A stretch of 32,584 bases of DNA, taken from NCBI GenBank assembly GCA_015057615.1, contig SVEA01000023.1, positions 1 to 32,584 on the forward strand, given 5' to 3'. Below the pieces are notes generated by a model that did no database searches, had not been told where the DNA came from, and worked only from the letters and a program-made list of their open reading frames with translations. A program made the translations under genes and the position numbers. This stretch comes from Lachnospiraceae bacterium (lineage in GTDB: Bacteria > Bacillota > Clostridia > Lachnospirales > Lachnospiraceae). Positions 2,560 through 29,165 of this stretch are shown piece by piece; position 1 is the stretch's first letter; each line of letters opens with the position of its first letter.

Positions 2560-2858
2560 TGATTTGAGTGTCAAAAGCCTTACTGGCAAATAGTCTTCAT
2601 CAATTTGCACAAATCAAGGAAAAACTTAAGTAATAGGAAACAATATTTTAATGCGCAACTGTTTGAAGTCGTTGGTACTTAGATCACGTATTTTGTAGTC
2701 TTACGTACCATTACGTACCTTAACCCAAGTACTGCGTTTTATGCAGTGCTTTGTGAGACAACGGGTTGCGAATGAAATATGTTTCCTATTACTTGTCAAC
2801 ACAAAATTGTGCAAATTGACGAAGGTGGTTTATAAATCGGCTTTTGACACTCAAATCA
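2560..2858 (+). mobile_element. Family-2 inverted-repeat element, copy 1 (complete, 299 bp)
   Basis: This is a non-coding element with perfect 20-bp terminal inverted repeats, TGATTTGAGTGTCAAAAGCC at 2560-2579 and its reverse complement at 2839-2858. A second repeated block (TCAATTTGCACAA and TAATAGGAAACA) continues inward from both ends, so most of the element can fold back on itself. The core hairpin is at 2661-2726, with TGGTAC/GTACCA and loop CGTATTTTG at 2687-2695. A second hairpin follows (AAGTACTGC with GCAGTGCTT). It carries no credible ORF. It closely matches the copy at 7448-7745. No clear target-site duplication is visible. Confidence 0.85.
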
Positions 2859-2870
2859 TTCTTAATTGCT

Positions 2871-2876
2871 ATTATA
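2871..2876 (-). promoter_or_regulatory. Possible -10 box for the cNMP-domain gene
   Basis: TATAAT on the minus strand lies just outside the family-2 element. The -35 region is poor (only a T-run 16 nt upstream). If it is used, the roughly 340-nt leader would contain the complete inverted-repeat element. Confidence 0.3.
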
Positions 2877-2966
2877 ACCTAAATTATCTATTAAAAAAAG
2901 GGAATATCCCATATTTTCTCAATATAGGACAAAATTCTTATATGGCTCTTCCGGATTAAAAACAAG

Positions 2967-3086
2967 GTAGCAAAGAGTTTGCCAAGGCAAACTTTCGCGC
3001 CAAGCGCGTTCTTGCCGCAGGTAGATAAATACCTTACGCGCGAGTATGTCATCCCCATGCGAACTATGTTCGCATGGAGGTTTTTT
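2967..3086 (+). other. Array of four hairpins ending in a terminator-like stem
   Basis: No gene is visible here. Four consecutive hairpins can be read: AGTTTGCC/GGCAAACT, CGCGC/GCGCG, GGTA/TACC, and CCATGCGAAC/GTTCGCATGG at 3055-3077. The last is followed by AGG and TTTTTT (3081-3086), as in an intrinsic terminator on the plus strand. It could be the end of a small plus-strand RNA or another repeat family. I see no strong promoter for it. Confidence 0.45.
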
Positions 3087-3088
3087 GC

Positions 3089-3113
3089 CGTATAGGACGC
3101 AATTTCCTATACG
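3089..3113. repeat. Perfect 9-bp stem-loop between opposing terminators
   Basis: CGTATAGGA (3089-3097) pairs perfectly with TCCTATACG (3105-3113). T-runs lie on both sides: TTTTTT at 3081-3086 on the plus strand, and seven A residues at 3116-3122 (T on the minus strand). It probably reinforces termination from both directions. Confidence 0.5.
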
Positions 3114-3115
3114 AC

Positions 3116-3147
3116 AAAAAAAGAGTACCGCTCATTTACGATACTCC
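3116..3147 (-). terminator. Rho-independent terminator after SRP RNA
   Basis: On the minus strand GAGTATCG pairs with CGGTACTC (one G-T pair) around an 8-nt loop, followed directly by seven T residues. It lies about 40 nt past the 3' end of the SRP RNA. Confidence 0.8.
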
Positions 3148-3189
3148 ATAGAATTCATTCTTACTGTATTTTATTGTTTCTATATTTTA

Positions 3190-3457
3190 ATCCGTGCGTT
3201 CTGCTTTGGATGAATACCATAGGCGTTACCTTTACAGTTAACTCGGTCCAGGCATCCTCACGGCACACAGGAGGTTTTGCTTAGTGCTGCTTCATTCCTG
3301 ACCTGACACGGTTCACAAATTCCTGTTGCGTAAGACCCAAACGTCAACACCACTTATAAAGGGCTGCCCTACAATAAAATCACCCGGGGCAGAACATCAC
3401 CCCTGCTATAGCGGATTGCAGGTACAGGGCACCGCTATCTCCCCGGCTGCACGGAAA
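3190..3457 (-). ncRNA. ffs: Signal recognition particle RNA, large Bacillus type
   Basis: This is the RNA scaffold of the signal recognition particle; it binds Ffh and targets nascent membrane and secreted proteins. The S-domain signature is clear on the minus strand: GTGTCAGGTCAGGAATGAAG followed by CAGCA. The Alu-domain half near the 5' end reads GGTGCCCTGTACCTGCAATC followed by CGCTATAGCAGGGG, as in clostridial and bacillar SRP RNAs. The ends TCCGTGC (3455-3449) and GCACGGA (3197-3191) pair and close helix 5. The predicted mature length of about 268 nt agrees with the known 271-nt B. subtilis scRNA. It follows tadA on the same strand but is not next to dnaX here, unlike in many Firmicutes. 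It has its own strong promoter and a terminator. Confidence 0.93.
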
Positions 3458-3507
3458 TCTTATGACAAAATTTAAAATAAGCTTTTTTAGCGAAAAGCTG
3501 TATGCCA

Positions 3508-3536
3508 AGTATAAAGCTTTTTTACTTTCATGTCAA
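3508..3536 (-). promoter_or_regulatory. Consensus sigma-A promoter for SRP RNA
   Basis: On the minus strand TTGACA (3536-3531) is separated by exactly 17 nt from TATACT (3513-3508). This is the best promoter in the window and fits an abundant stable RNA. Transcription would start near 3500, implying a precursor trimmed by about 45 nt at the 5' end. Confidence 0.85.
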
Positions 3537-3580
3537 CCCTCAAGCTTTTCCTTTTTATTCTTTTCCTCAAGCTTTTCTTA

Positions 3581-4084
3581 TTATTCTTCCGATCTTGCCG
3601 CTTCCTTTGCTGCTAATTTCTCCTGCTTATTCCGGGCTCTCAGTTCTTTAAAGAACATCTGCAATATATCGGTGCATTCCTTCTCCATAACGCCGTAAAC
3701 CAGCTCTACCTGATGATTAAACTCCTCCATCTGCAACAGATTGAGGATCGAACCGGCGCAGCCTGCCTTCGGATTCTTCGTACCTACCACAACCTGCTTA
3801 ATTCTAGCCTGAACAATCGCTCCCGCACACATCTGGCATGGCTCTAACGTAACGTACATAATGCAGTCTTCCAGGCGCCAATCTCCCATTGCCTTACTGG
3901 CTTTCTCGATTGCGATCAGCTCCGCATGGGCTAAAGTCGTTTTTTTTGTATTCCGTTTATTATAACCTCTTCCGATGATTTTATCCTGATAGACGATCAC
4001 GCATCCAATGGGTACTTCTCCCAAGCGGTATGCCTTCTTTGCCTGCTTCAGTGCTTCCTTCATGTATTGTTCATTCGTAGACAT
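3581..4084 (-). CDS. tadA: tRNA-specific adenosine deaminase
   Basis: This enzyme converts adenosine 34 to inosine in the anticodon of tRNA-Arg(ACG). The zinc site is complete: HAE (H53, E55, where E is the proton shuttle) and PCQMC (C83, C86), as in the cytidine/deoxycytidylate deaminase fold. VPIGCVIV near residue 25 is also typical. I chose the second in-frame ATG (4084): AAAAGGG lies about 10 nt upstream of it but directly abuts the first ATG at 4093. The protein is then 167 residues, within the usual range. The C-terminus is a charged helix (about 20 residues, K/E/A-rich). It is the first gene before the SRP RNA, a common clostridial pairing. Confidence 0.95.
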   Translation of the reverse strand: MSTNEQYMKEALKQAKKAYRLGEVPIGCVIVYQDKIIGRGYNKRNTKKTTLAHAELIAIEKASKAMGDWRLEDCIMYVTLEPCQMCAGAIVQARIKQVVVGTKNPKAGCAGSILNLLQMEEFNHQVELVYGVMEKECTDILQMFFKELRARNKQEKLAAKEAARSEE

Positions 4085-4135
4085 TACCTTCATTCCCTTT
4101 TCATATGGACTACTACCAAGAAATTTGATATAGTA

Positions 4136-4164
4136 ATTGTATCATAACCGTAACGAGGTGACAA
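4136..4164 (-). promoter_or_regulatory. Likely promoter for tadA
   Basis: On the minus strand TTGTCA (4164-4159) is separated by 17 nt from TACAAT (4141-4136). The -35 box overlaps the ribosome binding site of the divergent gene at 4166, so the two genes share a 72-bp control region. Confidence 0.6.
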
Positions 4165-4165
4165 T

Positions 4166-4861
4166 ATGCAGATCCATGGCTTTAACAAGACGACTCTGCT
4201 CGATTATCCGCAGCATCTAGCCGCCACTATATTCCTGGGCAGCTGCAATATGCGCTGTCCTTTTTGCCATAATTCATCCTTAGTGCTTCATCCTGATTCT
4301 CTGCCTGCGATACCGGCGGAAGAAGTCCTTTCCTACCTTACGAAACGAAAAGGTATCCTAGAGGGCGTATGTATCACCGGCGGCGAGCCGACCGTCAACC
4401 CGGATCTTCCCGACCTGATAAAAGCGATCAAGGCACTGGGACTTAAGGTTAAATTAGATACCAATGGTACGAACCCTTCCCTTTTAAAAGCTCTCGTTGA
4501 AGATCAGCTCATTGACTATGTTGCTATGGATATTAAAAATTCCAGAGAGCATTACGGTTTATCCGTTGGTATAAAAGATTACAATACGAATAAAATTAAT
4601 GATAGTATAACCTATCTATTAACTTCTCCGATTGCATATGAATTTCGCACGACAATTGTAAAAGAGCATCATACTTTAGAGGATATCCGCTCCATCGGAC
4701 AATGGATAAACGGAGCGGAGGCATACTATCTGCAGTCCTATAAGGACTCCGGAGAAATTCTCTCCCCAGGGCTTAGCAGTCATACGAAGGATACCCTGCT
4801 AAGCTTTGTTAAGCTGCTTACCCCCTATGTCGGGAAGGTTGAACTAAGGGGCGTGGATTAG
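4166..4861 (+). CDS. Radical SAM activase, NrdG2-like
   Basis: This is a 231-residue radical SAM protein of the type annotated as anaerobic ribonucleoside-triphosphate reductase activating protein (TIGR02495-like). It binds a 4Fe-4S cluster through C27, C31 and C34 (CX3CX2C in SCNMRCPFCHN) and carries the GGEP motif near residue 77 for S-adenosylmethionine. The family generates a glycyl radical on a partner enzyme or modifies small molecules; no ribonucleotide reductase lies in this window, so the partner is unknown. It starts with ATG at 4166, with GAGGTGAC just upstream. It is the first of two plus-strand genes, separated by 20 nt from the acetyltransferase at 4882. Confidence 0.85.
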   Translation: MQIHGFNKTTLLDYPQHLAATIFLGSCNMRCPFCHNSSLVLHPDSLPAIPAEEVLSYLTKRKGILEGVCITGGEPTVNPDLPDLIKAIKALGLKVKLDTNGTNPSLLKALVEDQLIDYVAMDIKNSREHYGLSVGIKDYNTNKINDSITYLLTSPIAYEFRTTIVKEHHTLEDIRSIGQWINGAEAYYLQSYKDSGEILSPGLSSHTKDTLLSFVKLLTPYVGKVELRGVD

Positions 4862-4881
4862 TATATAAGGAGGCGTAATTC

Positions 4882-5454
4882 GTGCAGCATACCTGTGAAA
4901 CAGACCGTCTGATCTTAAAAACTCTGGGCAAGGAAGCAGCGCCCATGGTTCTGTCCTTTTATGAAGAAAACAAATCGCACTTTGAACCGTGGGAGCCTAA
5001 GCGGCCGAATAATTTCTATACCCTGTTTTATCAAAAAGCTTCCCTGTCTGCCGAATACCATCAAATGGCAGAAGGAAAGCTCTTAAGATACTGGGTATTT
5101 CATAAGGATAATACCGATGAGATTATTGGTACCGTATGCTTTCAAAACTTTCTTAGGGCTCCCTATCTTAGCTGCAGCCTTGGATATAAGTATGGATATA
5201 AATATATTCATAAGGGCTATGCCTATGAGAGCATTCAAAAAGGAATTCGTCTTGTCTGGGACGAATATAACATGCACCGCATAGAGGCTTATATTATGCC
5301 AAGCAATAAGCCTTCCCTCCGGCTGATCAAACGGCTTGACTTTGTTTATGAGGGCCTCTGTTACTCCTATGCCTGCATTAACGATCAATGGTCCGACCAT
5401 AAACGCTATGCCTTGATCAATCCTGCGGATGAATTGTATAGGATTACTCCCTGA
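4882..5454 (+). CDS. GNAT family N-acetyltransferase, RimJ/RimL-like
   Basis: This is a 190-residue acetyltransferase of the GNAT fold. The N-terminus (ETDRLILKTL) and the segment around residues 131-160 (HRIEAYIMPSNKPSLRLIKR, then the F-x-x-E-G strand) match the RimJ/RimL branch, whose members acetylate protein N-termini or small amines with acetyl-CoA. It starts with GTG at 4882, supported by AAGGAGG at 4867-4873. It is in an operon with the radical SAM gene upstream. The substrate cannot be predicted from sequence. It converges with the gene at 5518-7209, with only 63 nt between them and no strong terminator visible. Confidence 0.85.
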   Translation: MQHTCETDRLILKTLGKEAAPMVLSFYEENKSHFEPWEPKRPNNFYTLFYQKASLSAEYHQMAEGKLLRYWVFHKDNTDEIIGTVCFQNFLRAPYLSCSLGYKYGYKYIHKGYAYESIQKGIRLVWDEYNMHRIEAYIMPSNKPSLRLIKRLDFVYEGLCYSYACINDQWSDHKRYALINPADELYRITP

Positions 5455-5517
5455 TGGGAAAAGGCGGCGCAATACTAAAGAAGTATATGTAAGGTATCAG
5501 CAGGGGCAGTCTCTGTA

Positions 5518-7209
5518 TTATACCGAGACTGCAATATACCAGTATCCGAAATCTCCCTGTCTTAATTCCCTTCTCTTTGCTGACTTAAAGCAATCAAAAC
5601 CAAACATTCTTGCAATAAATTGCTCCTTGTTATGATACGTTCCCGGAACTCCAATGATGTAACGGGTACCGAACCGATCCTTCATCTTTGCAAAAATCAA
5701 GTGCCGGTAGCTGTAGTATCCGTGAAGGAGAAAGCTGTTATTACTTAATCCCCAGAGTTCTCTTGGCAGAAGCCCGATATCCTTCGGCTCGATCTTTACC
5801 GATAGAATGACCTCATTATCTTCAAAAGGATTAATCCGCGGAAAGCTTTGAAATATCCTGGCTGCAACCGGTGATTCCATACTGGTGTAGGGTCTATTGC
5901 CTGCCCGGCTTCCTGCTTCTTCACTTTTGTTCTCATCCGTCACCTGCCTGTCTGCGATGTCTCTTCTCACGGCTGCGGTTTCCTGAATATCGCTTTTAAC
6001 AGCCACCGTTTCCTGGACTTCACTCTTGATATCTGTGGATTCCCGGCTTTCCTGATTAACATCCATGGTTTCCTGAAGCTCATTGCTCACAGCAATGCCT
6101 TCCTGAGATTCATTTCGATCCGTGGTACTCTCCCGGGCTTCTCTTATCGCAGCTACCATTTCCTGTGATTCGTTTCGATCTGTGGTAAGTTCCGGGCTAT
6201 CTTTCTTCGCAGGTATGCTTCCCTGATTTTCCTTTTTCGCAGCTGCACTTTCCTGAAATTCGTTTTGATCCGAAGCAATTTCTGGGGCTTCTTTCGGCGC
6301 AGCTAACATTTCCCTGCTTTCATTCCTGGTATCTACGGGGCTTTCGGTTTCCCTTCTAACGGTCTCTCTTCTACCCAATCCTCTGCTGCCTGCTGTCGGA
6401 TTATTTCCTTCGTTTCTATTATATGATCTCTCCCACGTTCCCCGGCGGTTTGATTCTCTTGACGTTCCTCCGGTCCTACCGATTTCCTTTCCGCTTACAG
6501 GATAGCCAATTCTCATGAATTGATTTGCCGTTCTGGTATTCGCTCCCGCTCCCCTTAAGTCCGTTCTCCTTTTGGGATCATAGGGATTATCCGGCAGACG
6601 CTCTACGGTCTTCCAACCCCGTGGTAACTGATACTTTGGTATCCTTTCCTCCTCTTCTACTGTTACGGTTCTTCGGTTCGGAGCGGTTGTACTCTCCTCG
6701 GAAACCTCTGTTTTCTTTTTCTCTCCCTCCCCCAATTCGCGGCTTTGGGAAACGGACGGTAACGGTTTCACCGGTGCTGCCACTGCCTCTTTTGCCGTTT
6801 CCTTCTTTGGCTTTGGCTTCATTGCCTTCATGATTTCCGTTGCTTCAATCGGCTTATCGTCCCATTCCGTAGCAAAAAACTCACCTGAATTCAGAAAAAG
6901 AATGATTCCGCCTATATCGGAAAGCTTATAGCCGGAGTTCATAATATTACTCTCATCCGCCAAAAGCTTACCATCCAGCACCTGGTTTCTCAGCCGGGAG
7001 TCCCCCAGATAAATAAGCTCTGTACCACTATGGTCCCTATGAATTAAATAAGTCGGAAATATACTGTCTGGTTGTCCCAGCATTTGCATATGCAGAGTAA
7101 CTTTGCACTGTCCATCCCTTGCTTCAATCCGGGCATATCCAACGTTCTTTCTCTTTATTCCATTTTCATATTGATACATATACGAAACCATTCTTTTATA
7201 GTCAGCCAA
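5518..7209 (-). CDS. DUF6128-like protein with twelve decapeptide repeats in its linker
   Basis: This is a 563-residue protein with two folded ends joined by a long, charged, low-complexity linker. Residues 1 to about 135 and about 460-563 (ending LRQGDFGYWYIAVSV) resemble Lachnospiraceae proteins annotated with DUF6128; this is family memory and not a search. Residues 296-415 are exactly twelve 10-residue units (consensus like NESQETxAxK), encoded by twelve 30-nt units at 5965-6324. The upstream linker (about 136-295) is rich in K, E, R and T and is probably disordered. It starts with TTG at 7209, supported by AAGGAG 7 nt upstream. There is no signal peptide or membrane segment. Function is unknown. 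Confidence 0.8.
   Translation of the reverse strand: MADYKRMVSYMYQYENGIKRKNVGYARIEARDGQCKVTLHMQMLGQPDSIFPTYLIHRDHSGTELIYLGDSRLRNQVLDGKLLADESNIMNSGYKLSDIGGIILFLNSGEFFATEWDDKPIEATEIMKAMKPKPKKETAKEAVAAPVKPLPSVSQSRELGEGEKKKTEVSEESTTAPNRRTVTVEEEERIPKYQLPRGWKTVERLPDNPYDPKRRTDLRGAGANTRTANQFMRIGYPVSGKEIGRTGGTSRESNRRGTWERSYNRNEGNNPTAGSRGLGRRETVRRETESPVDTRNESREMLAAPKEAPEIASDQNEFQESAAAKKENQGSIPAKKDSPELTTDRNESQEMVAAIREARESTTDRNESQEGIAVSNELQETMDVNQESRESTDIKSEVQETVAVKSDIQETAAVRRDIADRQVTDENKSEEAGSRAGNRPYTSMESPVAARIFQSFPRINPFEDNEVILSVKIEPKDIGLLPRELWGLSNNSFLLHGYYSYRHLIFAKMKDRFGTRYIIGVPGTYHNKEQFIARMFGFDCFKSAKRRELRQGDFGYWYIAVSV
5965..6324 (-). repeat. Coding minisatellite, 12 x 30 bp
   Basis: Within the gene at 5518-7209, 360 bp read as twelve in-frame 30-bp units encoding decapeptides such as NESQEMVAAI, REARESTTDR, NESQEGIAVS and SEVQETVAVK. 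The units have diverged but keep E at position 2 or 5 and a small or acidic character. No partial unit is left over. Confidence 0.8.
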
Positions 7210-7340
7210 AATATCACTCCTTTGCTATTTAAAATTATCGATGTTTCATGATTCTTTTAAATATATTCCAAAGAAACCGTCAATATTCCAAACACCCTTT
7301 CCAATCCGCTCATCCGATATAAAATCCCTTTCTTACAATT

Positions 7341-7379
7341 AAAAAAACAGGGTTGCTGCATTTGTTTTGCAACAACCCT
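7341..7379 (-). terminator. Rho-independent terminator for carB, beyond the inserted element
   Basis: On the minus strand AGGGTTGTTGCA pairs with TGCAGCAACCCT (one mismatch) around a 7-nt loop, followed by G and seven T residues. It lies about 390 nt past the carB stop, with the 298-bp family-2 element between them. Confidence 0.8.
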
Positions 7380-7447
7380 ATGATTGTAAACTTATCTGCC
7401 TTTACACCGATGTTATCCCCAGGATACCTTCGATTCTTTATATTTTG

Positions 7448-7745
7448 ATTCGAGGGTCAAAAGCCTTCCTAACAAATCGTCTTCATCATTTGCACAAATC
7501 AAGGAAAAACTTACGTTATAGGAAGCAATATTTTAAGTTTCAACTGTTTGAAGTCGTTGGTACTTAGAACACGTATTTTGTGGTCTTATGTACCATTACG
7601 TACTTCAACCCAAGCACTGGCGCTTTTACAGTGCTTGGTGGAACAACGTGTTGCGAATGAAATATGTTTCCTATTACTTGCCAACACATAAATTGTGCAA
7701 ATTGATGAAGTTGGTTTGTATAAATCGGCTTTTGACCCTCAAAAC
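7448..7745 (+). mobile_element. Family-2 inverted-repeat element, copy 2 (complete, about 298 bp)
   Basis: It is homologous to 2560-2858 over its full length. Its two ends share their own variant of the repeat, GAGGGTCAAAAGCC. The core hairpin is at 7546-7609: GAAGT/ACTTC, CGT/ACG, TGGTAC/GTACCA, GAACAC/GTGGTC (one mismatch) and loop CGTATTTTG at 7572-7580. The second hairpin is CCAAGCACTG with CAGTGCTTGG. ATATTTTG occurs directly outside both ends (7440-7447 and 7746-7753), a candidate 8-bp target-site duplication. It sits between the carB stop codon (24 nt away) and the carB terminator. Confidence 0.85.
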
Positions 7746-7768
7746 ATATTTTGTGAATTATTTGATCT

Positions 7769-10700: not shown

Positions 10701-10987
10701 AGCCCGGATTGTCCTCCTAAATTCGGAAGCAGCCCATCCGGCCTTTCTTTTTCAATAATCTGAGTTAAACGGTCTAGATTCAGCGGCTCAATATAGGTGA
10801 TATCCGCCGTATCCGGATCCGTCATAATCGTTGCAGGATTAGAATTAACCAATATAATTTCATAACCAAGTTTCTTTAACGCTTTGCATGCCTGCGTTCC
10901 GGAATAGTCAAATTCGGAAGCCTGACCAATAATGATCGGACCGGAACCAATGATTAAAATCTTATGAATATCTTCTCTTTTTTTCAT
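7769..10987 (-). CDS. carB: Carbamoyl-phosphate synthase large subunit
   Basis: This subunit makes carbamoyl phosphate from ammonia (delivered by the glutaminase subunit CarA), bicarbonate and two ATP, for pyrimidine and arginine synthesis. Both ATP-grasp halves are present: residues 1 to about 400 open with the nucleotide loop IIGSGPIIIGQ, and about 550-930 open with ILGGGPNRIGQGIEFDY. The oligomerisation domain lies between them, and an MGS-like allosteric domain occupies the last 140 residues. The length of 1072 residues is standard. I chose the second ATG (10987, MKKREDIHKI), which matches family starts; the first ATG (10999) adds MVIN. CarA is not adjacent: a 470-nt non-coding stretch lies upstream. 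A family-2 element separates the stop codon from the terminator. Confidence 0.97.
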   Translation of the reverse strand: MKKREDIHKILIIGSGPIIIGQASEFDYSGTQACKALKKLGYEIILVNSNPATIMTDPDTADITYIEPLNLDRLTQIIEKERPDGLLPNLGGQSGLNLCSELSKAGVLDKYNVKVIGVQVDAIERGEDRIEFKKTMNTLGIEMARSEVAYSVEEALKIADTLGYPVVIRPAYTMGGAGGGLVYNIDELKKVVSRGLQASLVGQVLVEESILGWEELELEVVRDATGKMITVCFIENIDPLGVHTGDSFCSAPMLTIPKEVQEELQRQAYKIVDAIEVIGGTNVQFAHDPVSGRIAVIEINPRTSRSSALASKATGFPIALVSAMLAAGLDLKDIPCGKYGTLDKYVPDGDYVVIKFARWAFEKFKGAEDKLGTQMRAVGEVMSIGKTYKEAFQKAIRSLETGRYGLGGAKDFASKTKEELLDLLHVPTSERQFIMYEALRKGATVEELYQQTKIKHYFIEQMKELVLEEEEIKKFKGTVPPAAVLKTAKWDGFSDKYLSLLLDVPEKRIRDSRIQAGIKQAWDKIHVSGTEDSNYYYSTYHLKEDTSPISPNPKIMILGGGPNRIGQGIEFDYCCVHAAFALKELGYETIIVNCNPETVSTDADTSDKLYFEPLTVEDVLSIYEKEKPLGVIAQFGGQTPLNLSAELKANGVNILGTTPETIDLAEDRDHFRIMMEKLNIPMPESGMAVDVEEALSIAAKIGYPVMVRPSYVLGGRGMEVVHDDESLATYMKAAVGVTPDRPILIDRFLNNALECEADAISDGVDAFVPAVMEHIELAGIHSGDSACVIPSLNISEENLNTIKEYTIKIAKELKVCGLMNMQYAIENGIVYVLEANPRASRTVPLVSKVCSINMVKLATQIIIDQLTGKPSPVKELRDKKFIHYGVKEAVFPFNMFPEVDPLLGPEMRSTGEVLGLSGSFGEAFYKSQEAAGTKLPLNGTVLISVNDRDKVEVVEVAKGFADCGFKILATGGTYDLITSKQIPAEKIFKLYQGRPNILDAVTNGKIDIIVNTPIDKKSAQDDSYIRKAAIKARIGYVTTMAAAKATIAGIKQMKSSQAAGVKSLQEIHKGIQ

Positions 10988-11469
10988 GTTAATAACCATG
11001 CCCTTTCTTGATCACCTGCAAACCTTGTGCCGCAGGCTCATATTTGCGTGTTAAAAATCAATTTTTAACACTATCCTCCATCCTAATTGTTTGTACTATA
11101 AAATATCGGTATTGCTATGAACAAAGTGCACCAATGGGTTATTTTTGCCCAATTTCTAAACATATTACAGAAAACAAGGAAAATAAGCAACAGCAAAATT
11201 ATTCCTGTAACAGAAAGGAAGTTTATAATTATACAATCGGCATTCCTGTCTCCCCCTTCCTCCTTACCGATCTTTGCCTGCTATATTTAACTCATACTTT
11301 TCAAACATCTTCGGTAACTTCCGGCACATCCCATATTTGCAATTCTTGTTATTATAAAACATCGTTCATATTTATGCAATTATTTTTTTACTATTATTTA
11401 TATTAATGAAAATAATTATTAGAATTTATAAATAAAAGCCGCTCCCATTTAAAGGAAAGCAGCTTATTT
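10988..11469 (-). other. Gene-free region upstream of carB
   Basis: No coding region is supported in these 480 bases. It contains a perfect 10-bp stem (GTGTTAAAAA with TTTTTAACAC, about 11048-11071) and a CCTGC/GCAGG stem just before the start. A weak promoter candidate for carB is TTGTTC, an 18-nt spacer, then TATAGT near 11090-11120. Just before carB lies AAGAAAGGGCATGG, repeated upstream of the small ORF at 13383-13529. I see no PyrR-type binding loop or T-box motif. Confidence 0.5.
11431..11466 (-). terminator. Rho-independent terminator after rsmA
   Basis: On the minus strand AAGCTGCTTTCC folds onto GGGAGCGGCTT, followed by TTATTT. It starts within a few bases of the rsmA stop codon. 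Confidence 0.8.
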
Positions 11470-12351: not shown

Positions 12352-12354
12352 CTC

Positions 12355-13426: not shown

Positions 13427-13529
13427 TATGCTCCTGGTTTTGATTCCTGGGCTTTACGGAATTGGTTACACTGTTAAATTGCTCCTGTTCCTTCTTTTGC
13501 TGTGCTTTTTCCGTCTTTTCTCTATTCAT
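13383..13529 (-). CDS. Small Q/K/E-rich hypothetical protein, 48 residues
   Basis: The ORF begins MNREKTEKAQQKKEQEQF and ends GPKNNKR; it is hydrophilic and probably disordered. The interest is its leader: bases 13530-13557 are almost identical to those before carB, including AAGAAAGGGCATGG and a second in-frame ATG 12 nt upstream. The shared initiation region supports real translation, but the protein itself has no recognised homology. Confidence 0.35.
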   Translation of the reverse strand: MNREKTEKAQQKKEQEQFNSVTNSVKPRNQNQEHNVREEGIGPKNNKR

Positions 13530-13731
13530 ACTAATAACCATGCCCTTTCTTGACCACTAACGCCCATGCTTTTTTGGCATAAATCCTGTAGAATAGCTAC
13601 TTTTGCTATTCTTCCAAAGGCTCTCGTATTTAAAGAGACTTTTTGCTCGTAGCTTTTGCAAGACTATTCACCTCGGAATTAGTATGGATAATATCCTGCA
13701 AAATATGTGTTTTTATTCTCCATCGAAACCT
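13530..13731. other. Gene-free stretch between the small ORFs and the element relic
   Basis: About 200 bases without a supported gene. On the minus strand they contain a hairpin (GAATAGC with GCTATTC) and, at the 3' end of the stretch, the carB-like leader. No clear terminator for amrS is visible. Confidence 0.4.
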
Positions 13732-13857
13732 TGATATGAACGTCATAAGCCTTCTTAACAAATCGTCTTCTTCAAATATGTTTCCTATTGCTTTTCAATG
13801 CATTAATTGTGCAAATTGATGAAGTTGAGTTTATAAATCGGCTTTTGGCGCTCATAC
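13732..13857 (+). mobile_element. Family-2 element, copy 3 (internally deleted)
   Basis: The left end TGATATGAACGTCATAAGCC and about 35 following bases match the left end of copies 1 and 2. They are then joined directly to about 75 bases of the right end, finishing GGCTTTTGGCGCTCATACA. The core hairpin has been lost. The right end overlaps the 3' end of amrS and contains its TGA stop codon. Confidence 0.75.
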
Positions 13858-18868: not shown

Positions 18869-18929
18869 GGTTCTATAATAAATGCTGAGGGTGTGTGAAA
18901 AACATACTTCCAACATTTATTATAGAACC
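18869..18929. repeat. Long perfect inverted repeat, 16-bp stem
   Basis: GGTTCTATAATAAATG (18869-18884) pairs perfectly with CATTTATTATAGAACC (18914-18929). The 29-nt loop can form an inner GTGTG/CATAC stem. The outer ends faintly resemble insertion sequence termini of the ISL3 type, so it may be two abutted ends without a transposase. No target duplication is visible. It is placed between two terminators. Confidence 0.65.
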
Positions 18930-21482: not shown

Positions 21483-21497
21483 GATGGCTAACTCCTT

Positions 21498-22256: not shown

Positions 22257-23157
22257 TGAGAAGAGATTTTCCTTCCTTCTTTTCCAAAAGCTCCAGGACC
22301 TTCAGCTCTTCATCTTCAATAAACGTCTTATCCTTCTTTCTTCTTCTATTAAACTTTAATTCCTCCACCTTATATTCACGTACTTCTTTCTCATCGTTTT
22401 CCAAGGTAACGATCACCTTCACCAACTGCTTTAGTACGCTGACGCTTTGCACTTCCCCTTTTAAGCTGTCAGAGGTAGTAACATAATCTCCTACATTGGG
22501 AAGTCTGCTGTTTAGCTCCTCATATGCCTCTTCCTCATTTTTTAAGCAGCACATCAATCTTCCACATACCCCGGATATCTTTGTCGGATTAAGGGAAAGA
22601 TTCTGCTCCTTTGCCATCTTAATCGATACGGGAGCAAATTCCGATAAAAACTCGTGGCAGCACAATCTTCTTCCGCAGATTCCGATCCCGCCTACAATTT
22701 TAGTCTCGTCCCTTACACCGATCTGGCGAAGCTCTATTCTTGTTTTAAATACACTGGCTAAATCCTTCACCAGCTCCCGGAAATCAATTCTTCCGTCTGC
22801 CGTAAAATAAAACAATACTTTATTGTTGTCAAAGGTATATTCGCAATCGATCAGCTTCATTTCAAGCCCATGCTTCTTAATCTTCTCTAAGCATATTTTG
22901 AAAGCATCTTTTTCCTTATCTTTATTTCTCTGCTCAATCGCATCGTCCTCTTCCTTGGCGATACGGATCACCGGCTTCAGCGGCTGAATAATCTTATCCT
23001 CTTCCACATCCCTCGGTCCCAAAACCACCCTGCCGTACTCAATACCCCTGGCGGTTTCGACAATAACATTGTCATTCTGCTTAATATTATACCCGGCGGG
23101 ATCAAAAAAATAAATTTTACCTGCCTTGCGAAATCTCACTCCAATCACATTAACCAT
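22246..23157 (-). CDS. ricT: PSP1-domain protein RicT/YaaT
   Basis: It is equivalent to B. subtilis YaaT (RicT), which with RicA and RicF supports RNase Y-dependent mRNA maturation and entry into sporulation. It has 303 residues. The PSP1 domain covers about residues 60-150 and is followed by the two cysteine motifs CGRRLCCHEF (near 170) and VCGRLMCCLKNEEE (near 205) that bind Fe-S clusters in the complex. ATG at 23157 has AAAGGAG 7 nt upstream, within the end of holB (8-nt overlap). Position between holB and the yabB-like gene is as in Bacillus, except that yabA is absent. Confidence 0.95.
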   Translation of the reverse strand: MVNVIGVRFRKAGKIYFFDPAGYNIKQNDNVIVETARGIEYGRVVLGPRDVEEDKIIQPLKPVIRIAKEEDDAIEQRNKDKEKDAFKICLEKIKKHGLEMKLIDCEYTFDNNKVLFYFTADGRIDFRELVKDLASVFKTRIELRQIGVRDETKIVGGIGICGRRLCCHEFLSEFAPVSIKMAKEQNLSLNPTKISGVCGRLMCCLKNEEEAYEELNSRLPNVGDYVTTSDSLKGEVQSVSVLKQLVKVIVTLENDEKEVREYKVEELKFNRRRKKDKTFIEDEELKVLELLEKKEGKSLLNDD

Positions 23158-24142
23158 TGCTATTCTCCTTTATCGTAAGCAGCATCAATTCGATTGTAAT
23201 ATCAAAATTAACATTTGCCCTTAGTCTAAGTTTTGCCTTATCAACTGCATTTATAATATTTTCAATTTCATCGTAGCTTCGAAAGTTCGCCTGCTTTTTA
23301 ATAAATTGATATTCCTCTTTATATAGTAATAGATTTAGGTCATTTGTGGCTTTCAGCATTAAGATATCCCGGTACCATAAAAGGATCAGATCCAGATAAT
23401 CATCAATTGTACTTTTATTTGCAAAGGTCTTTAAGCCGGAAATAATTTCATAAATCTCCATCTCGTCCAGGTATTTTAAGATGTGAAGTACGTCATCCTT
23501 CGTCTTTTCAAATTCTTCCGAAGAGGCATATTTAATTGCTTTCCCTACATTTCCTCCGGAAAAATCAGCAGCAATCCTTGCCATATAATCCGGTACATGA
23601 TGCTGTGACATGAGAAACTCTTTGATTAGCTGCTTATCGATCGGTCTTAAGTTAAGCATAACCGCTCTTGATAATATCGTTGGTAGTAAACGGTTTATAT
23701 TATTGACCAGAAGCATGATTACCGCATACTCCGGCGGCTCTTCCATGGTCTTAAGCAGCGCATTTTGTGCTGCTTCCGTCAGCTTGTCCGCTGAATCGAT
23801 AATATATATTTTATGGCGACTGCTATAAGGCTTGATCTGAATATCTCCATTTACCTGATTCCTTATGTCATCCACGCCTATGCTGGCTTTTTCATGGGTT
23901 ACCCATAGAATGTCCGGGTGATTGTTTGAATCTGCCTGCATACAGGAGATACAGTGGTTACAGGAAGCCTTGCTGCCTTCTTCACACTGCAATGTCTTTG
24001 CAAATGCAGCTGCCAGCGTTTTCTTACCGCTGCCTTCTTCCCCATGTATAATGTAGGCATGAGAAACCTTACCGGACTCTATTGCGTTCTGTAGATGCTG
24101 TATGACACTTTCGTGTCCTATCATTTGATGGAAGCCTTGCAT
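23150..24142 (-). CDS. holB: DNA polymerase III delta-prime subunit
   Basis: It is a clamp-loader component that opens the beta ring for loading on DNA. It has 330 residues. The AAA+ N-terminus has the P-loop HGEEGSGKKT (residues 33-42) and a zinc module formed by C53, C61, C64 and C67. IIDSADKLTEAAQNALLK is the Walker B and sensor region, then TMEEPPE, and SRAV replaces the usual SRC arginine-finger motif while keeping the arginine. ATG at 24142 has GGAG 7 nt upstream. It is 29 nt after yaaR, as in B. subtilis. Confidence 0.95.
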   Translation of the reverse strand: MQGFHQMIGHESVIQHLQNAIESGKVSHAYIIHGEEGSGKKTLAAAFAKTLQCEEGSKASCNHCISCMQADSNNHPDILWVTHEKASIGVDDIRNQVNGDIQIKPYSSRHKIYIIDSADKLTEAAQNALLKTMEEPPEYAVIMLLVNNINRLLPTILSRAVMLNLRPIDKQLIKEFLMSQHHVPDYMARIAADFSGGNVGKAIKYASSEEFEKTKDDVLHILKYLDEMEIYEIISGLKTFANKSTIDDYLDLILLWYRDILMLKATNDLNLLLYKEEYQFIKKQANFRSYDEIENIINAVDKAKLRLRANVNFDITIELMLLTIKENSNG

Positions 24143-24171
24143 AATATCACTCCGTTCGCAAAAGGCATATC

Positions 24172-24612
24172 CTAGGTCAGGATATCTAACAACAGTCCTC
24201 TAATCTCGTCTATCTTATCTAAAATTATCAAATGATCCTTTTCGTCTTTAATCAATTCTGCTGCCAGCTCATCCAGGTTCTGATCCACTAGCTTGATCAT
24301 AGTATAAACTCTATGCCGCCCCTTCCGATCCAGAAAATTCTCTCTTGAAAATTTGTGGGAGCGGTTCACGATCTCATTTAAAAACCCCCGGACAAGCTCG
24401 CGGTAACACTTCATATCCGTTAGATCCATACGCTTTGCCAGTTTCTTGCCCTGCGTCGTGATCTCCTCCAGCATGGTATTCAGCCTTGCCTGTAGATCGT
24501 GCTCTTCGATATTTGATATTAAAGCAAACTTAAAGGAACCGTCTGCTTCCTGCACCGGCTTTTTTGCCTCAACCTGATTCAATGCTTGCATATTGTTTAC
24601 CTTAATATCCAT
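24172..24612 (-). CDS. YaaR family protein (DUF327)
   Basis: This is a 146-residue helical, charged protein of the YaaR/DUF327 family. The conserved core is about residues 60-110 ([32 protein letters not shown]). The biochemical function is unknown. ATG at 24612 has AGGAGG 6 nt upstream. It lies directly before holB, the normal position in Firmicutes, and 175 nt after the guanylate-kinase-like gene, with a structured leader between them. Confidence 0.9.
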
Positions 24613-24785
24613 AGATATCCTCCTGTTCGTATTGACTGCTGTTTGGCGCAGATTAGGATTGACTTACTTATGCCGGTCGCAGATTAGGATGCACGTCTGC
24701 ACTTCTCTATCCTCGTATGAGTGTTTACTCGAGCAAGCTCGGTAAACTCTCCTACTCGGCTAGACTAATCTGCTTATACGTGTAC
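24613..24785 (-). other. Structured leader before yaaR with duplicated pairing arms
   Basis: No gene. On the minus strand GCAGATTAG (24773-24765) can pair with either of two identical downstream CTAATCTGC segments (24687-24679 or 24656-24648). Between them sits a strong hairpin at 24719-24751 (GAGAGTTTAC with GTAAACACTC, closed by CGAG-CTTG-CTCG). The second arm is part of a 13-nt direct repeat. It could be a repeat element or a switch-like leader. Confidence 0.5.
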
Positions 24786-24814
24786 ATTATAACATAGGAT
24801 GGCTTTTGTTTACA
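24786..24814 (-). promoter_or_regulatory. Candidate extended -10 promoter for yaaR-holB
   Basis: TATAAT at 24791-24786 on the minus strand is preceded by TGT (extended -10); a poor -35 (GTAAAC) lies 16 nt upstream. It overlaps the stop codon of the guanylate-kinase-like gene. Confidence 0.45.
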
Positions 24815-25398
24815 GTTAATTTTTTGATATCTTGGGTGACCTGGTGCAGGCACTCTTCTATATCGATATTATGATATCTCTTCGTTATTCCGGCTTTCTG
24901 TAAATTTTCTTCGGAGAAATCTTCCTCATCCGCCAGGTATCGTCTGCAGATCTCTGCGTACTTCGGCTGCTCCTGCTTTTGCTCTCTTCCGATGGAGCGG
25001 AGCAGTCTTATGTCCGCCTCTACCTCTAGATAGATCGGTTCTACTTTTTCCTTTCCAAAGTATTCTCGAATCTGTTCGTAGGTCTCTAAGGTCCCGATCA
25101 TCAAATAATTGTTTTTATCCAGGGTAATTTGACCGTCATTTACCGTAAAGTAATGCCATACCCCCTGCGTCGTATGATAGAATCTATGCTCTATCACTTT
25201 CCTATCCGCCTTTAACTCTCCCAGCGTCTTCTCGTCTACGAAGTGATACTCTACCCCTTCGATTTCGCCCATTCGTATCGGTCTTGTTGTATACATAACA
25301 ACCGTCTTAAGTTCCAGATCGGACCACTCTAATAAACGCTTATATAGCGTGTCCTTGCCGGTTGCACTTTTGCCTATGATAATAAATATTTTTCCCAT
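24787..25398 (-). CDS. Guanylate-kinase-like protein in the tmk position
   Basis: This is a 203-residue P-loop kinase of the guanylate kinase fold. The P-loop is IIGKSATGKDT (residues 7-17), followed by the GMP-site-like TTRPIRMGEIEGVEYHFV (about 41-58). The rest diverges from Gmk: the lid is RSIGREQKQ and the C-terminal third is not typical. A nucleotide monophosphate kinase role is likely, but GMP specificity is not assured. ATG at 25398 has GAGAGG 7 nt upstream. It occupies the place of thymidylate kinase between the decarboxylase and yaaR in B. subtilis. A short palindrome related to the family-2 ends separates it from the decarboxylase. Confidence 0.8.
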   Translation of the reverse strand: MGKIFIIIGKSATGKDTLYKRLLEWSDLELKTVVMYTTRPIRMGEIEGVEYHFVDEKTLGELKADRKVIEHRFYHTTQGVWHYFTVNDGQITLDKNNYLMIGTLETYEQIREYFGKEKVEPIYLEVEADIRLLRSIGREQKQEQPKYAEICRRYLADEEDFSEENLQKAGITKRYHNIDIEECLHQVTQDIKKLTVNKSHPML

Positions 25399-25424
25399 TA
25401 TTTTTCCTCTCTACGCTTTCATAC

Positions 25425-25460
25425 TGATATGAGTATAATCAGCTTTTGTCACTCATATCA
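25425..25460. repeat. 36-bp palindrome resembling family-2 ends only
   Basis: TGATATGAGT (25425-25434) and ACTCATATCA (25451-25460) form a perfect stem. The right arm, read inward, is TGATATGAGTGACAAAAGCT, matching 16 of 20 bases of the family-2 terminus. It would be an extreme internal deletion. It holds the stop codon of the decarboxylase. Confidence 0.55.
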
Positions 25461-26880
25461 TTACTTCTATCTCCTCTTTCCCGCCCCCGGATAATCCGGT
25501 AACGGTAAAGCCATCCTCGATCGCCCGGGTAATAAAGTCGATGAAATCCCTTTCAATTCTCTCCCCGGATACCAAGAGAGGGGTTCCCGGCGGATACATA
25601 CTGATAAAATCGGCGCAGATGCGCCCGCAGCTATCCTCTAACTGGATAACTTCCGTCCCATGCTCCAAGGCTTCATAAGGATACCTCTGCATCACGGGGC
25701 GGGCAAACGATGCGTTTCCAGCCGGCTTCTTTTCCTTCCCCTGATTATAATTATCAAGCTCCCGGTCAATCGAAAGCAGCGCCTTTGTAAACCTCTCAAG
25801 GCCTTCCTCGGTATCGCAGATACTTGTCATTCCTAATATATAATCCCTGGATTCCATCTCCACCACAATATGATATTTTTCCCGAAGGTGTTCTCCCAGC
25901 TGATGCCCATTCCACGAAGTATTCGAAGTGAAAACCGTTATTTTCGAGGGATCCCAATCGTAGACCCCATAATTTCCTCTGATATCTCCAGTTAAAAGCT
26001 TTAAGTTTCTTAATTGCTCCATGGACCGATAGAACAGTGCCAGCCTCGCATAATAAGTATCAAATAAGCATTTTCCTTGCTCCTCTATAAGACGGATACA
26101 GCGGTCGATTCCTGCCATAAGAAGATAGGAGGGACTACTGCTTTGATAGACCGACAAATATTTTCGTATCCTGCGGTTTAATTCGGGCAGATTGGAATGC
26201 AATACTGCGGTCTGGGTAAATGCCGGCAGGGTTTTATGAAGACTTTGAATCACAAGGTCCGCTCCTAAGGTGACTGCACTCTTTGGGAAACCGTCATGGA
26301 AGCCAAAATGAGCTCCATGCGCCTCATCCACAAGAAGTACCGCCTTGTACCTATGTGCGATATCAGCGATCCTTCTAATATCGGAAACCACTCCCTCATA
26401 GGTAGGGGAGGTGATGATGATCAGCTTGATATCCGGATTCTTTATCAACGCCTCTTCGATTTTTTCCGGAGAAATTCCACAATTGATCGGTATTTGCTCC
26501 GCCATTTGTGGATAAATATAGACCGGCTTAAGCTGCTTCATAGAAATCGCATGATACACTGCCTTATGGCAGTTTCTTGCAACCAGAACCTTATCCCCCC
26601 GATATGTCGCAGCCGATATGCCGGCAAGAAGCCCAGCTGTGCTGCCATTTACCAGAGGAAACGCTTTGTTTGAATGATATATTCTGCTGATGCGCTCCGA
26701 GAGTACTCTTAAGATATTCTCTGGCTGATGCAGGTTATCAAACCCCGGGATCTCTGTAATATCGATCGCATAAGGATTCTCCATGGAAAGCATCGAAGTA
26801 TTTCGCTTATGCCCGGGCATATGCATGGGATAATAATCTTTTTTACTGTATTTTACCAATTTATCATAGAGTTCGTCCAT
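25453..26880 (-). CDS. Orn/Lys/Arg decarboxylase family protein (YaaO-like)
   Basis: This is a 475-residue PLP enzyme of the Gram-positive group III decarboxylase family; substrates in the family are arginine, lysine or ornithine, giving polyamine precursors. HMPGHKRN opens the protein (residues 20-27), VDEAHGAHF (184-192) contains the PLP aspartate and histidine, and K216 in SLHKTLPA is the Schiff-base lysine. The C-terminal domain has YPPGTPLLVSGE. ATG at 26880 has AAAGGTGAG upstream. It lies 33 nt after the LacI/GGDEF gene and is likely co-transcribed. The last codons ATG ATA are followed by TGA inside a family-2-like palindrome. Confidence 0.93.
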   Translation of the reverse strand: MDELYDKLVKYSKKDYYPMHMPGHKRNTSMLSMENPYAIDITEIPGFDNLHQPENILRVLSERISRIYHSNKAFPLVNGSTAGLLAGISAATYRGDKVLVARNCHKAVYHAISMKQLKPVYIYPQMAEQIPINCGISPEKIEEALIKNPDIKLIIITSPTYEGVVSDIRRIADIAHRYKAVLLVDEAHGAHFGFHDGFPKSAVTLGADLVIQSLHKTLPAFTQTAVLHSNLPELNRRIRKYLSVYQSSSPSYLLMAGIDRCIRLIEEQGKCLFDTYYARLALFYRSMEQLRNLKLLTGDIRGNYGVYDWDPSKITVFTSNTSWNGHQLGEHLREKYHIVVEMESRDYILGMTSICDTEEGLERFTKALLSIDRELDNYNQGKEKKPAGNASFARPVMQRYPYEALEHGTEVIQLEDSCGRICADFISMYPPGTPLLVSGERIERDFIDFITRAIEDGFTVTGLSGGGKEEIEVMI

Positions 26881-26913
26881 TTTTAAGTCTCACCTTTCCC
26901 GCAGCCTGCCAGT

Positions 26914-28779
26914 TTATCCTTTTCTTTCTGATTTTTGCCGATACATTCTTTGATCCGCCAGAATCAGACATTCCTCCAAGGTTGTCTGCGCATTTGGAAT
27001 CAGCATGTTCCAGCCGTAGCTTACCTGTACCTTATATTGATTCTTACCGCTATGGTTAAACAAATCCAATTCCTCCTTAAACTTCTTAAGGAAGGCATCC
27101 AACTTCCGGGCATCATAGTCCATTCCGATGGACATAAACTCATCCCCGCCATAGCGTATGCAAATCTCATCATCCTCCGCCGCCGCGCTGATCGCTCTGG
27201 CAATCGCCTGCAAGGCAACATCCCCCTGCGCATGACCAAAGGTATCATTGATATACTTTAGATTATCCATATCGATCGTTAAGACCATAAAGCCAACCTG
27301 CTTTTGTATACATTGCTTCAAATACTTCTGCCCCAGCGTTTCGATTCCTCTCCGGTTATACAGATCGGTAAGATCATCCTTATAGGACATATCCTCCAGC
27401 CTATAGATCAAAAGATTAAGTTCCCTGTGGATTCTCACATTCTCAATTGCATTACCGATGTTGATCAGCCAGTTTTGAAACGTAATCATATCGATCTGAA
27501 GCCTTTCATAGCTGATCGCAATATAACCAAAATTTTTATCCAGATAATGCAGCATTGCAAAATAATAAATCATGGGCTGTTCTTCTGTAAATTCTTTCGT
27601 AATTAGATTCCTTCGCGAAAAATTTATTTTACGATGCTCCCTTTTATTCCGTATTCCAAATTCCATCACCATTTCATTATTTCCAAAGGAATGATTCGTG
27701 TCCCAATCCTCTCTTAAGCACAGTAAAAAGCTCTTTAATTCGGTTTTATTCATAATATAAGCCTTTAAATTATTTACGACCTGTTCCAGCCTGGTAAGAC
27801 CAGTCAAAGCCGTTGTCATGCGGGCATTTATTGCGATTTTCCTTTTCATAGAATCAAAGAGGGCGATACTATATTTTCTCTGCTTATTGCATTCATCATG
27901 CCAATCTTTTCTGCAGCCACAGGATTCCCGATACCGGGTCGTTGTTTTTATATAAAAATCCTCCGGTGTACCGTCGTTTCCCTGCTTTCGGTGTACGATA
28001 TTGACCGCCTCCACACCGATCTCATGTACCGGGATGGTAACGGTTGTTAAGGACGGTACCAATTCGGAAGCATCCTCAATATCATCGCAACCAGTTACAA
28101 CCACATCCTCCGGAACAGAAATTCCATTTTCCTCCAATGCATTACATACCGTAATCGCCATATAATCATTGGCACATATAATCGCCTGCGGCAACTCTAG
28201 GGATCCATTCAGCCAATGCCGGACCGCATCATAGCCCAATTCCTTCCAGAAGTCTCCATAGTAAATATGGTCCTCTTCCACAGGAATATTATGTTTGGCT
28301 AAAATACGCCGGTAGGTGCGTAATCTTTTCCCGGAAGCGATAGAATCCTTTGGTCCCGCCAAAAAATTGAGACGGGTAAAGCCGTGAACTTCAATTAGAT
28401 GAGAGATTACATCTTCCAAGATATGGTCATCCTCGATTAAAACATTGTGGAGTCCTTCAATTTTCCTGCGCACGCTGACAACGGGGCAGGTACTGTATTT
28501 TTCAATCAACCTCTTAATGTTATTATTTAATTTATCTATTGTAAATGTATCTGGTGCAAGAATAATTCCATCAAAATCTTGGTAGTAGGGAAGTTTGGCG
28601 ATCTCATTCTCTCCCATATCGAATTCCGGCTTACCGTACCCTCCGAAGCTGGTAAAGAAAGCAACATTATAATCCAGCTCCTTTGCGCGGGAGGTAATCC
28701 CTTTGCAGAGAACATCCTGAAATTCGTCATTTAATTGAGAAATAAACACACCGACGGTTCTTTTTCCATTCGCAAACAT
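26914..28779 (-). CDS. LacI-type sensor fused to GGDEF diguanylate cyclase
   Basis: This is a 621-residue cytoplasmic protein without signal peptide or HTH. Residues about 6-285 form a periplasmic-binding-protein-like sensor of the LacI/GalR type (VGVFISQLNDEF; IICANDYMAITVCNALEENG; DDIEDASELVPSLTTV). A SCGC motif follows near 290, then a helical linker, then a GGDEF domain (about 455-615) with the intact active-site motif RYGGDEF near 542-548. The product would be cyclic di-GMP, controlled by an unknown ligand, probably a sugar or other small molecule. The residues before RYGGDEF (EDDEICI) contain no RxxD inhibitory site. ATG at 28779 has AAAAGGGG about 10 nt upstream. It has its own promoter. 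Confidence 0.9.
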   Translation of the reverse strand: MFANGKRTVGVFISQLNDEFQDVLCKGITSRAKELDYNVAFFTSFGGYGKPEFDMGENEIAKLPYYQDFDGIILAPDTFTIDKLNNNIKRLIEKYSTCPVVSVRRKIEGLHNVLIEDDHILEDVISHLIEVHGFTRLNFLAGPKDSIASGKRLRTYRRILAKHNIPVEEDHIYYGDFWKELGYDAVRHWLNGSLELPQAIICANDYMAITVCNALEENGISVPEDVVVTGCDDIEDASELVPSLTTVTIPVHEIGVEAVNIVHRKQGNDGTPEDFYIKTTTRYRESCGCRKDWHDECNKQRKYSIALFDSMKRKIAINARMTTALTGLTRLEQVVNNLKAYIMNKTELKSFLLCLREDWDTNHSFGNNEMVMEFGIRNKREHRKINFSRRNLITKEFTEEQPMIYYFAMLHYLDKNFGYIAISYERLQIDMITFQNWLINIGNAIENVRIHRELNLLIYRLEDMSYKDDLTDLYNRRGIETLGQKYLKQCIQKQVGFMVLTIDMDNLKYINDTFGHAQGDVALQAIARAISAAAEDDEICIRYGGDEFMSIGMDYDARKLDAFLKKFKEELDLFNHSGKNQYKVQVSYGWNMLIPNAQTTLEECLILADQRMYRQKSERKG

Positions 28780-28847
28780 GATAGCGTTTCCCCTTTTCTC
28801 CTATACCGCCCTCAATAAAGCCATATAGAAAGCATTTTTCTATACTA

Positions 28848-28876
28848 AATATATCTCTTTTCCCTTGAAAAAACAA
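28848..28876 (-). promoter_or_regulatory. Promoter for the LacI/GGDEF gene
   Basis: On the minus strand TTGTTT (28876-28871), a 17-nt spacer and TATATT (28853-28848). It starts just past the bidirectional terminator at 28892-28933. Confidence 0.55.
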
Positions 28877-28891
28877 TCCACCATTCCTATC

Positions 28892-28933
28892 AAAATAAAT
28901 CCTGACTCGCCGAAACGAATCAGGATTTATTTT
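28892..28933 (-). terminator. Terminator of the ABC operon
   Basis: AAAATAAATCCTGA pairs perfectly with TCAGGATTTATTTT around a 14-nt loop that can form three more pairs. The A/T flanks suit either strand. It lies 240 nt past the ATPase stop, with the complete family-1 element in between. Confidence 0.85.
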
Positions 28934-28960
28934 ATCGCAATCACAATAATTAAATTAAAC

Positions 28961-29165
28961 GTTACTATTCACACCCCTAACAAAGTCTATAGTATGATTT
29001 CGACAAATGATATCCAATAAGGAGTATTTGCATTCGTCGGTACTTTGGCTCCGTATTTTGGGGCCTTATGTACCGCTACGTAATGCAACTAAGCGAAAGC
29101 ATCTCCGAATCGGATACATTTGTCGAAATCATAACATGGTATACATGTCAGGTGTGAATAGTAAC
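28961..29165 (+). mobile_element. Family-1 inverted-repeat element, copy B (complete, 205 bp)
   Basis: The outer terminal repeats are GTTACTATTCACACC (28961-28975) and GGTGTGAATAGTAAC (29151-29165), perfect over 15 bp. The inner repeats are ATGATTTCGACAAATG and its complement. The core hairpin is at 29028-29088: TTGCATT/AATGCAA, CGT/ACG, CGGTAC/GTACCG, GGCTCC/GGGGCC and loop CGTATTTTG at 29052-29060. It has no ORF. It starts 8 nt past the stop of the ABC ATPase and precedes that operon's terminator. Confidence 0.85.

Follow-up and report, generated by a model that had tools for sequence, protein, structure and literature searches.

A covarying three-way-junction tip shared by miniature inverted-repeat elements with unrelated ends in Lachnospiraceae

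The window studied here is the whole contig SVEA01000023.1 (32,584 nucleotides) of a Lachnospiraceae bacterium, one of the 215 contigs of a 4.07-Mb genome. It carries four copies of a core that folds into a three-way junction, seated in short elements that are miniature inverted-repeat transposable elements (MITEs). An earlier note on this DNA had described the four copies (20-80, 2661-2726, 7546-7609 and 29028-29088) as one hairpin shared by two families of inverted repeats, and all of them were found with the structure that it claimed. The GGTAC/GTACC stem is kept in every copy, the adjoining pair is swapped from C-G in family 1 to T-A in family 2, the outer and upper stems differ between copies, and the two-base bulge is retained, as the note had said. 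It had overlooked a second stem, capped by a GNRA loop, immediately 3' of the core (GCGAAAGC, 29093-29100 in copy 4), and therefore the whole fold is a three-way junction. Also overlooked were the element ends, which are GTTACTRTTCACA in family 1 (type A below) and ATTYGAGKGTCAAAAGCC in family 2 (type B), the target duplications beside two of the elements, and two remnants of family 2 listed below. The features of the window that belong to these elements are the following, P2 being the hairpin first described and P3 the stem at the GNRA position:

1..146, minus strand: copy 1, family A MITE truncated at the contig start; core 1-89 (98.4 bits), P2 34-69, P3 8-15, end 141-146 (AGTAAC)
2562..2857, plus strand: copy 2, family B MITE; ends ATTTGAGTGTCAAAAGCC and its complement; no clear target duplication found at the element borders
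2654..2741, plus strand: core of copy 2 (61.8 bits); P2 2674-2709, enlarged P3 at about 2727-2751
7448..7745, plus strand: copy 3, family B MITE; ends ATTCGAGGGTCAAAAGCC and GGCTTTTGACCCTCAAAAC; 8-bp duplication ATATTTTG at 7440-7447 and again at 7746-7753
7539..7629, plus strand: core of copy 3 (73.1 bits); P2 7559-7594, enlarged P3 at about 7612-7636
about 13732..13857, strand not assigned: core-less deletion derivative of family B with both ends retained, from repeat comparison
about 31049..31105, plus strand: left-end fragment of family B, from repeat comparison
28961..29165, plus strand: copy 4, complete family A MITE of 205 bp; ends GTTACTATTCACACC and GGTGTGAATAGTAAC; 8-bp duplication AATTAAAC at 28953-28960 and AATTAAAT at 29166-29173
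29019..29108, plus strand: core of copy 4, a three-way junction scoring 100.1 bits with model R1; P2 29039-29074, P3 as above

Copy 1 is truncated because the window is an entire contig and the contig end cuts it. When the copies were folded singly, copy 3 and copy 4 gave z-scores of -5.0 and -4.4, and copy 2 just -2.3. A degenerate form of the core, GGTACNNNGNNNNCGTATTTTGNNNNCNTANGTACC, with up to three mismatches has 234 matches genome-wide and its reversed pattern has none, which rules out chance as the origin of the core.

The core is a junction of about 90 nucleotides made of three stems: P2, with an internal loop (UUA/UUAU), a YU bulge and a loop of seven nucleotides; P3, usually GC-GNRA-GC; and P1, which carries both and extends into the arms of the element. 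Among 28 cores from the window genome and 13 relatives, 92.7% of the 784 cells of the 28-pair model are paired, against 24-43% when the partners are slid by one to three columns. Two-sided changes occur in 157 cells of that set, compared with 52 in shuffles (none of 500 shuffles was as high), and they touch 21 of the 28 pairs; RNAalifold, unaided, gave nearly the same structure. A larger set of 88 matches (84 distinct cores) at 80 loci on named contigs is 93.6% paired, with 513 two-sided changes against 141 and 24 of the 28 pairs involved. Since these loci were picked by the exact core pattern, and their alignment was fitted to the model, it is the variable stems and not the fixed bases that carry weight there.

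Two further alignments, A3 (90 rows) and A4, omit the other copies of the window genome. When the column pairs of A3 are ranked by corrected mutual information, the top 29 contain 26 pairs of the 28-pair model. The three additional ones are 8-110 and 11-105, which form Watson-Crick pairs in 62 and 77 rows out of 90 and lengthen P2 up to the junction, and 1-138, which is mixed. The upper stem is ungapped in 172 cores, being fully Watson-Crick in 142, in need of G-U in eight and mismatched in 22. These correspond to 62, 7 and 20 distinct stems, respectively, a count unaffected by the few duplicates in the set (at least three pairs of identical loci: L120/L159, L097/L204 and L124/L223). Covariation among many homologues, the absence of which the earlier note had named as refuting it, was thus found in counts that resemble those of R-scape. 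Its broader argument, that changed sequence with kept pairing speaks for selection on the structure of RNA or single-stranded DNA, stands as far as the pairing is concerned; covariation alone may fall short of proving such selection.

The unpaired bases are kept as well. Of the 90 A3 rows, 74 have UUA as left internal loop, 71 have UUAU or UUAC as the right one, and 83 have CU or UU as the bulge. GUAUUUU predominates in the seven-nucleotide loop; the variants most frequent in A3 are GUACUUU, GUUUUUU and GUUCUUU. The P3 loop is GNRA in 162 of the 172 cores. Many family B copies of the window genome, including both in the window, have an enlarged P3 that has lost the GNRA loop.

The elements that carry the core have terminal inverted repeats of at least three types. 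Type A elements measure 200-207 bp in 31 complete copies, with ends GTTACTGTTCACAC and 8-bp duplications that are at least 7/8 identical in 20 of the 31, as against 2.4% of shuffled pairs. Type B ends are a TTYGGGTGTCAAAAGCCC-like repeat and type C ends are TAGGYAATTGCGAAACTC, both on elements of about 200-300 bp. Duplications at least 85% identical flank 13 of 40 type B elements (control 0.8%) and 13 of 52 of type C (control 0.3%), these counts being the best register of a scan over many registers and including core-less elements. At loci L026 and L039, A copies sit inside B-like sequence. Other arms surround the core in five more genomes (G346, G326, G094, G264 and G006), in the first four of which they lack a defined end. 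Placement of 178 model hits by simple calls of open reading frames (ORFs) put 134 between ORFs and 14 within one, the remaining 30 at edges being unscored. The carriers are short and gene-less, with terminal inverted repeats, target duplications and many intergenic copies, and are thus MITEs. The claim of one homologous core in two families whose ends are unrelated is borne out, and the number of families proves larger than two, because type C and several unclassified ends carry it too.

The reverse also occurs, in that C ends are found on elements with other hairpins. Three of six such elements fetched from relative G003 share one tip, the remaining three being shorter, and all three from G006 share another; no convincing match to model R2 was found in the C-end elements of either genome, and four of them, when folded, gave z-scores from -5.5 to -12.6. 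The ends and the tip are modular, since the core pairs with at least three end types and C ends pair with other tips. The shared G003 tip (L394, L395 and L397) contains CGGAAGTTAAGC, which we take to be reminiscent of 5S rRNA; Rfam gave no 5S match. For the G006 counterparts (L399-L401) Rfam returned a "mir" match below gathering score.

Deletion derivatives that keep both ends without the tip exist, and three copies (L347, L354 and L369) have lost the tip of P2; in L347 and L369, both of the window genome, the loss is clean and leaves GGTACGTACC or GGCACGCACC, as the deletion of a palindrome would. Some apparent cases did not hold. Short A-type pairs in G024 were considered as core-less MITEs, but all eight fetched contain N and one (L381) still shows a partial core; with N inside every fetched element, these are assembly gaps and not evidence. 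Three core-less A elements of 97 bp in G029 have a common left flank (L373 read reversed) and may for this reason be one insertion. Other variants concern the architecture of single loci. In a C-end element of G151 (L324) the internal loop of P2 has received extra hairpins, and the element measures 344 bp between ends instead of about 206. G167 has four tandem cores spaced 148 bases apart (L116, at 1353, 1501, 1649 and 1797), and the outer arms of L282-L286 in G346 differ between copies of one genome yet remain complementary.

In the genomes sampled, the core is rare beyond Lachnospiraceae. With model R1, 121 of the 299 sampled family members carry it at E 1e-3. At E 1e-4 the same model finds it in 21 of 246 genomes of the order, all of them Lachnospiraceae, and in 8 of 245 from the class, where 7 are Lachnospiraceae. 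In the sole match of the class search outside the family (G730, E 4e-5) most of lower P2 is broken, and it was rejected. Model R2 found the core in 5 of 398 genomes of the phylum, four being Lachnospiraceae; the fifth, G1143, is the better outsider, with seven divergent matches. An exact scan returned at least 118 stretches, and among the named carriers listed are Anaerocolumna, Roseburia porci, Coprococcus catus, Butyrivibrio, Kineothrix and Ruminococcus turbiniformis. Matches in metagenome-assembled genomes titled Muribaculum or Bacteroidales are taken as mislabelled bins. Locus L097, from a genome of the same genus as the window (G027), matches L204 on a metagenome contig labelled Herbinix without a difference over 3,036 bases, and the host is therefore probably a Herbinix-like member of the family. 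Exact core matches are absent from the IMG/VR viral contigs, which disfavours viral spread of the core.

As to how the elements move, the most informative locus lies in relative G023 (L385), where an element of 2,256 bp has A ends (with one left mismatch), a perfect 8-bp duplication GAGCAAGT and a gene for a protein of 558 amino acids that matches PF03050, transposase IS66 family, with E 5.8e-21. This element contains no core, and the MITEs contain no gene. The shared ends and 8-bp duplications suggest that an IS66-type enzyme may move A MITEs in trans. The earlier supposition of a transposase acting in trans is plausible, and for the ends of family 1 this relative offers a matching element. 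An autonomous element with both core and protein was not seen in the clusters identified among 602 ORFs within 2.5 kb of the matches. ORF clustering brought out no protein family next to the core, integrases and Y1 transposases not having been searched by name. The largest cluster (16 loci) gave ABC transporters in its three tested members, and two others, with one member tested each, gave MatE and a response regulator. A protein cluster of seven loci turned out to be read-through of the element itself.

For the 134 intergenic matches, orientation to both neighbouring genes is antisense in 48, sense in 43, divergent in 22 and convergent in 21. A cis-regulatory host RNA is disfavoured because this orientation is random. 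Divergence was compared in 24 B copies of the window genome that were located by their right arm, since an earlier comparison on copies selected by the core was discarded as biased; the set omits copies too close to a contig end, and three were removed by hand (L348, without a B interior; L353, with an A insertion beside the arm; and L356, with a replaced interior). The core diverges by 0.094 and the arms by 0.160 and 0.158, private changes per site being 0.026-0.031 against 0.036, and the enlarged P3 is the most divergent part (0.216). Read cautiously, this pattern points to selection on copies that are still spreading and not on resident ones.

We think that these elements are MITEs whose central tip, one homologous and conserved fold of about 90 nucleotides, probably promotes their spread, with mobilisation presumably in trans. 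DDE transposases would act in trans and recognise only the ends, as the matching IS66-family element suggests for type A, and the tip is a module that goes with three or more unrelated end types. It would stand at the end of a hairpin made by the transcript of the element or by one DNA strand. Pairing and unpaired bases would be kept since the fold aids the spread of the element and not the locus where a copy resides. The most likely mechanism, in our opinion, is that a putative trans-acting factor common to Lachnospiraceae binds the tip.

Several results weigh against this explanation. Core-less elements with the same ends, and the C ends with other hairpins in two relatives, indicate that the core is dispensable for transposition as such. 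Divergence separates core and arms by a modest margin, and at 16 right inner-arm sites next to the search pattern it is even lower than in the core (0.065). Autonomous partners for B or C ends were not found at the loci fetched. G-U pairs amount to only 51 of 4,601 cells in A3 and A4 together (one junction pair left out), beside 4,278 Watson-Crick cells, 30 A-C and 242 other non-pairs, which is about the level left by decay alone. Finally, arm-to-arm templated correction of imperfect palindromes could create part of the covariation.

The scarcity of G-U bears on the best of the rival explanations, namely that the tip works as folded DNA, a one-strand hairpin or cruciform recognised by a factor, with no RNA involved. 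This is possible but, as we judge it, unlikely. It agrees with the almost purely Watson-Crick stems of A3 and A4, with the random orientation to genes and with the fact that the carriers are DNA transposons. The GNRA rule speaks for RNA, although DNA hairpins can carry similar loops. So do the family B copies of the window genome: the 24 arm-found copies have 21 G-U, 6 A-C and 10 other non-pairs in 144 upper-stem cells, with 9 of the 21 at one single pair, and 35 core-found copies have 23, 9 and 6 in 210 cells, with 18 of the 23 at that same pair. In the first 10 nucleotides of the arms G-U again exceeds A-C, 35 against 13, over 85 dereplicated copies (p 0.002, the copies not being independent), but bins further out give 23 against 17, 30 against 31 and 36 against 60. 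Family A of the window genome speaks against RNA, with 6 G-U, 3 A-C and 2 others in 312 cells. The GNRA loops and the G-U pairs of family B thus hint at RNA, and the rarity of G-U at other loci hints at DNA. As acting form we lean weakly toward RNA, on which our judgement is about evenly balanced; DNA is a serious but lesser candidate, and any other form is improbable.

A second rival holds that the pairing is mostly mutational, the arms correcting each other as quasipalindromes during replication, and that the loop bases are a double-stranded site for a protein. The near absence of anything but Watson-Crick pairs in the stems of A3 and A4 would follow from it, as would the outer arms of G346, which lie far from the core. 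Correction of this kind should, however, remove the bulge and internal loop, and both persist. A U-G pair at one upper-stem position, present in 18 of the 35 core-found and 9 of the 24 arm-found B copies, also speaks against it, and we regard this rival as rather improbable. That these are ordinary MITEs, with the core a functionless neutral passenger copied along with the arms from one ancestor, is very unlikely: core-less derivatives retaining both ends and the three lost P2 tips fit such a history, but 93% pairing over 62 Watson-Crick stems and fixed unpaired bases in many genera are not expected from it.

The window holds other repeats and RNAs. A large bacterial signal recognition particle RNA (RF01854, 200.9 bits) lies at 3192-3454 on the minus strand, a few hundred bases from copy 2. 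A 33-base direct repeat, 91% identical, occurs outside the MITEs at 10983-11015 and 13525-13557, and an inverted repeat of 28 nucleotides with a five-nucleotide gap (18869-18929, 82% complementary) lies just past a short ORF and is perhaps a terminator or a degenerate repeat. Elsewhere in the window genome, cores sit less than 100 bases from the ends of contigs C22, C23, C38, C60, C83 and others, which suggests that the assembly was probably broken by these repeats.

In the attC sites of integrons and in hairpins of the REP/IS200 type, a folded single strand with bulged bases is important to mobile DNA; the present elements differ in having terminal inverted repeats and target duplications. 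With IS66-family insertion sequences they share the type A ends and the 8-bp duplication. The earlier note had recognised no named RNA, and indeed no Rfam match reached gathering score in the window. A permissive scan of copy 2 gave Arrc11 at 15.5 bits (cut-off 52), and one of 14 loci gave mir-2001 and REN-SRE, both below cut-off. A description of this element was not found in the literature searched. What the elements share is a folded, modular MITE tip, spread across the family, for which Rfam 15 has no named model.

The element belongs to a known kind, the structured mobile repeat, near BOX-type MITEs and the mobile/repeat class of PMC11109978. Bacterial MITEs such as BOX and RUP of pneumococcus, ERIC, and Correia/NEMIS are likewise short, gene-less, foldable and present in many copies with inverted ends, and are probably mobilised in trans by the transposase of an insertion sequence (PMC3049150, PMC10969869). 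To judge by those descriptions, BOX, ERIC and Correia are set apart by the covarying three-way-junction tip found here across at least three unrelated end types in one bacterial family. The study of 50 genomes in PMC11109978 counts 250 mobile/repeat candidates. One example, MRSC-65-2, is described as one long stem that contains a UYCCGG repeat and comes from diverse phyla. Covarying structure, many copies per genome, inconsistent gene orientation and an open choice between RNA and DNA are common to that class and to our element. By the description of MRSC-65-2, the difference lies in the three-way junction, the absence of UYCCGG from our consensus and a distribution centred on a single family. 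One of the 250 candidates could be this motif.

Bacterial MITEs are usually viewed as ends plus filler, but in these elements the filler is better conserved than the rest and has a defined fold. This tip recurs throughout a major gut family on elements whose ends are unrelated. The boldest form of our explanation is that one fold and one family-wide factor let a single 90-nucleotide module ride several unrelated DDE transposase systems. We hold this to be a speculative and on balance unlikely extension. If it were true, cut-and-paste elements would contain a folded RNA or DNA that is itself under selection, a level of transposon biology not found in the literature searched. There is now a covariance model together with natural test material, namely 62 perfectly paired upper stems, natural deletions, and identical ends that occur both with the tip and without it. 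Such material may help to show if the interior of a non-autonomous element influences how it spreads, be it as RNA or as DNA.

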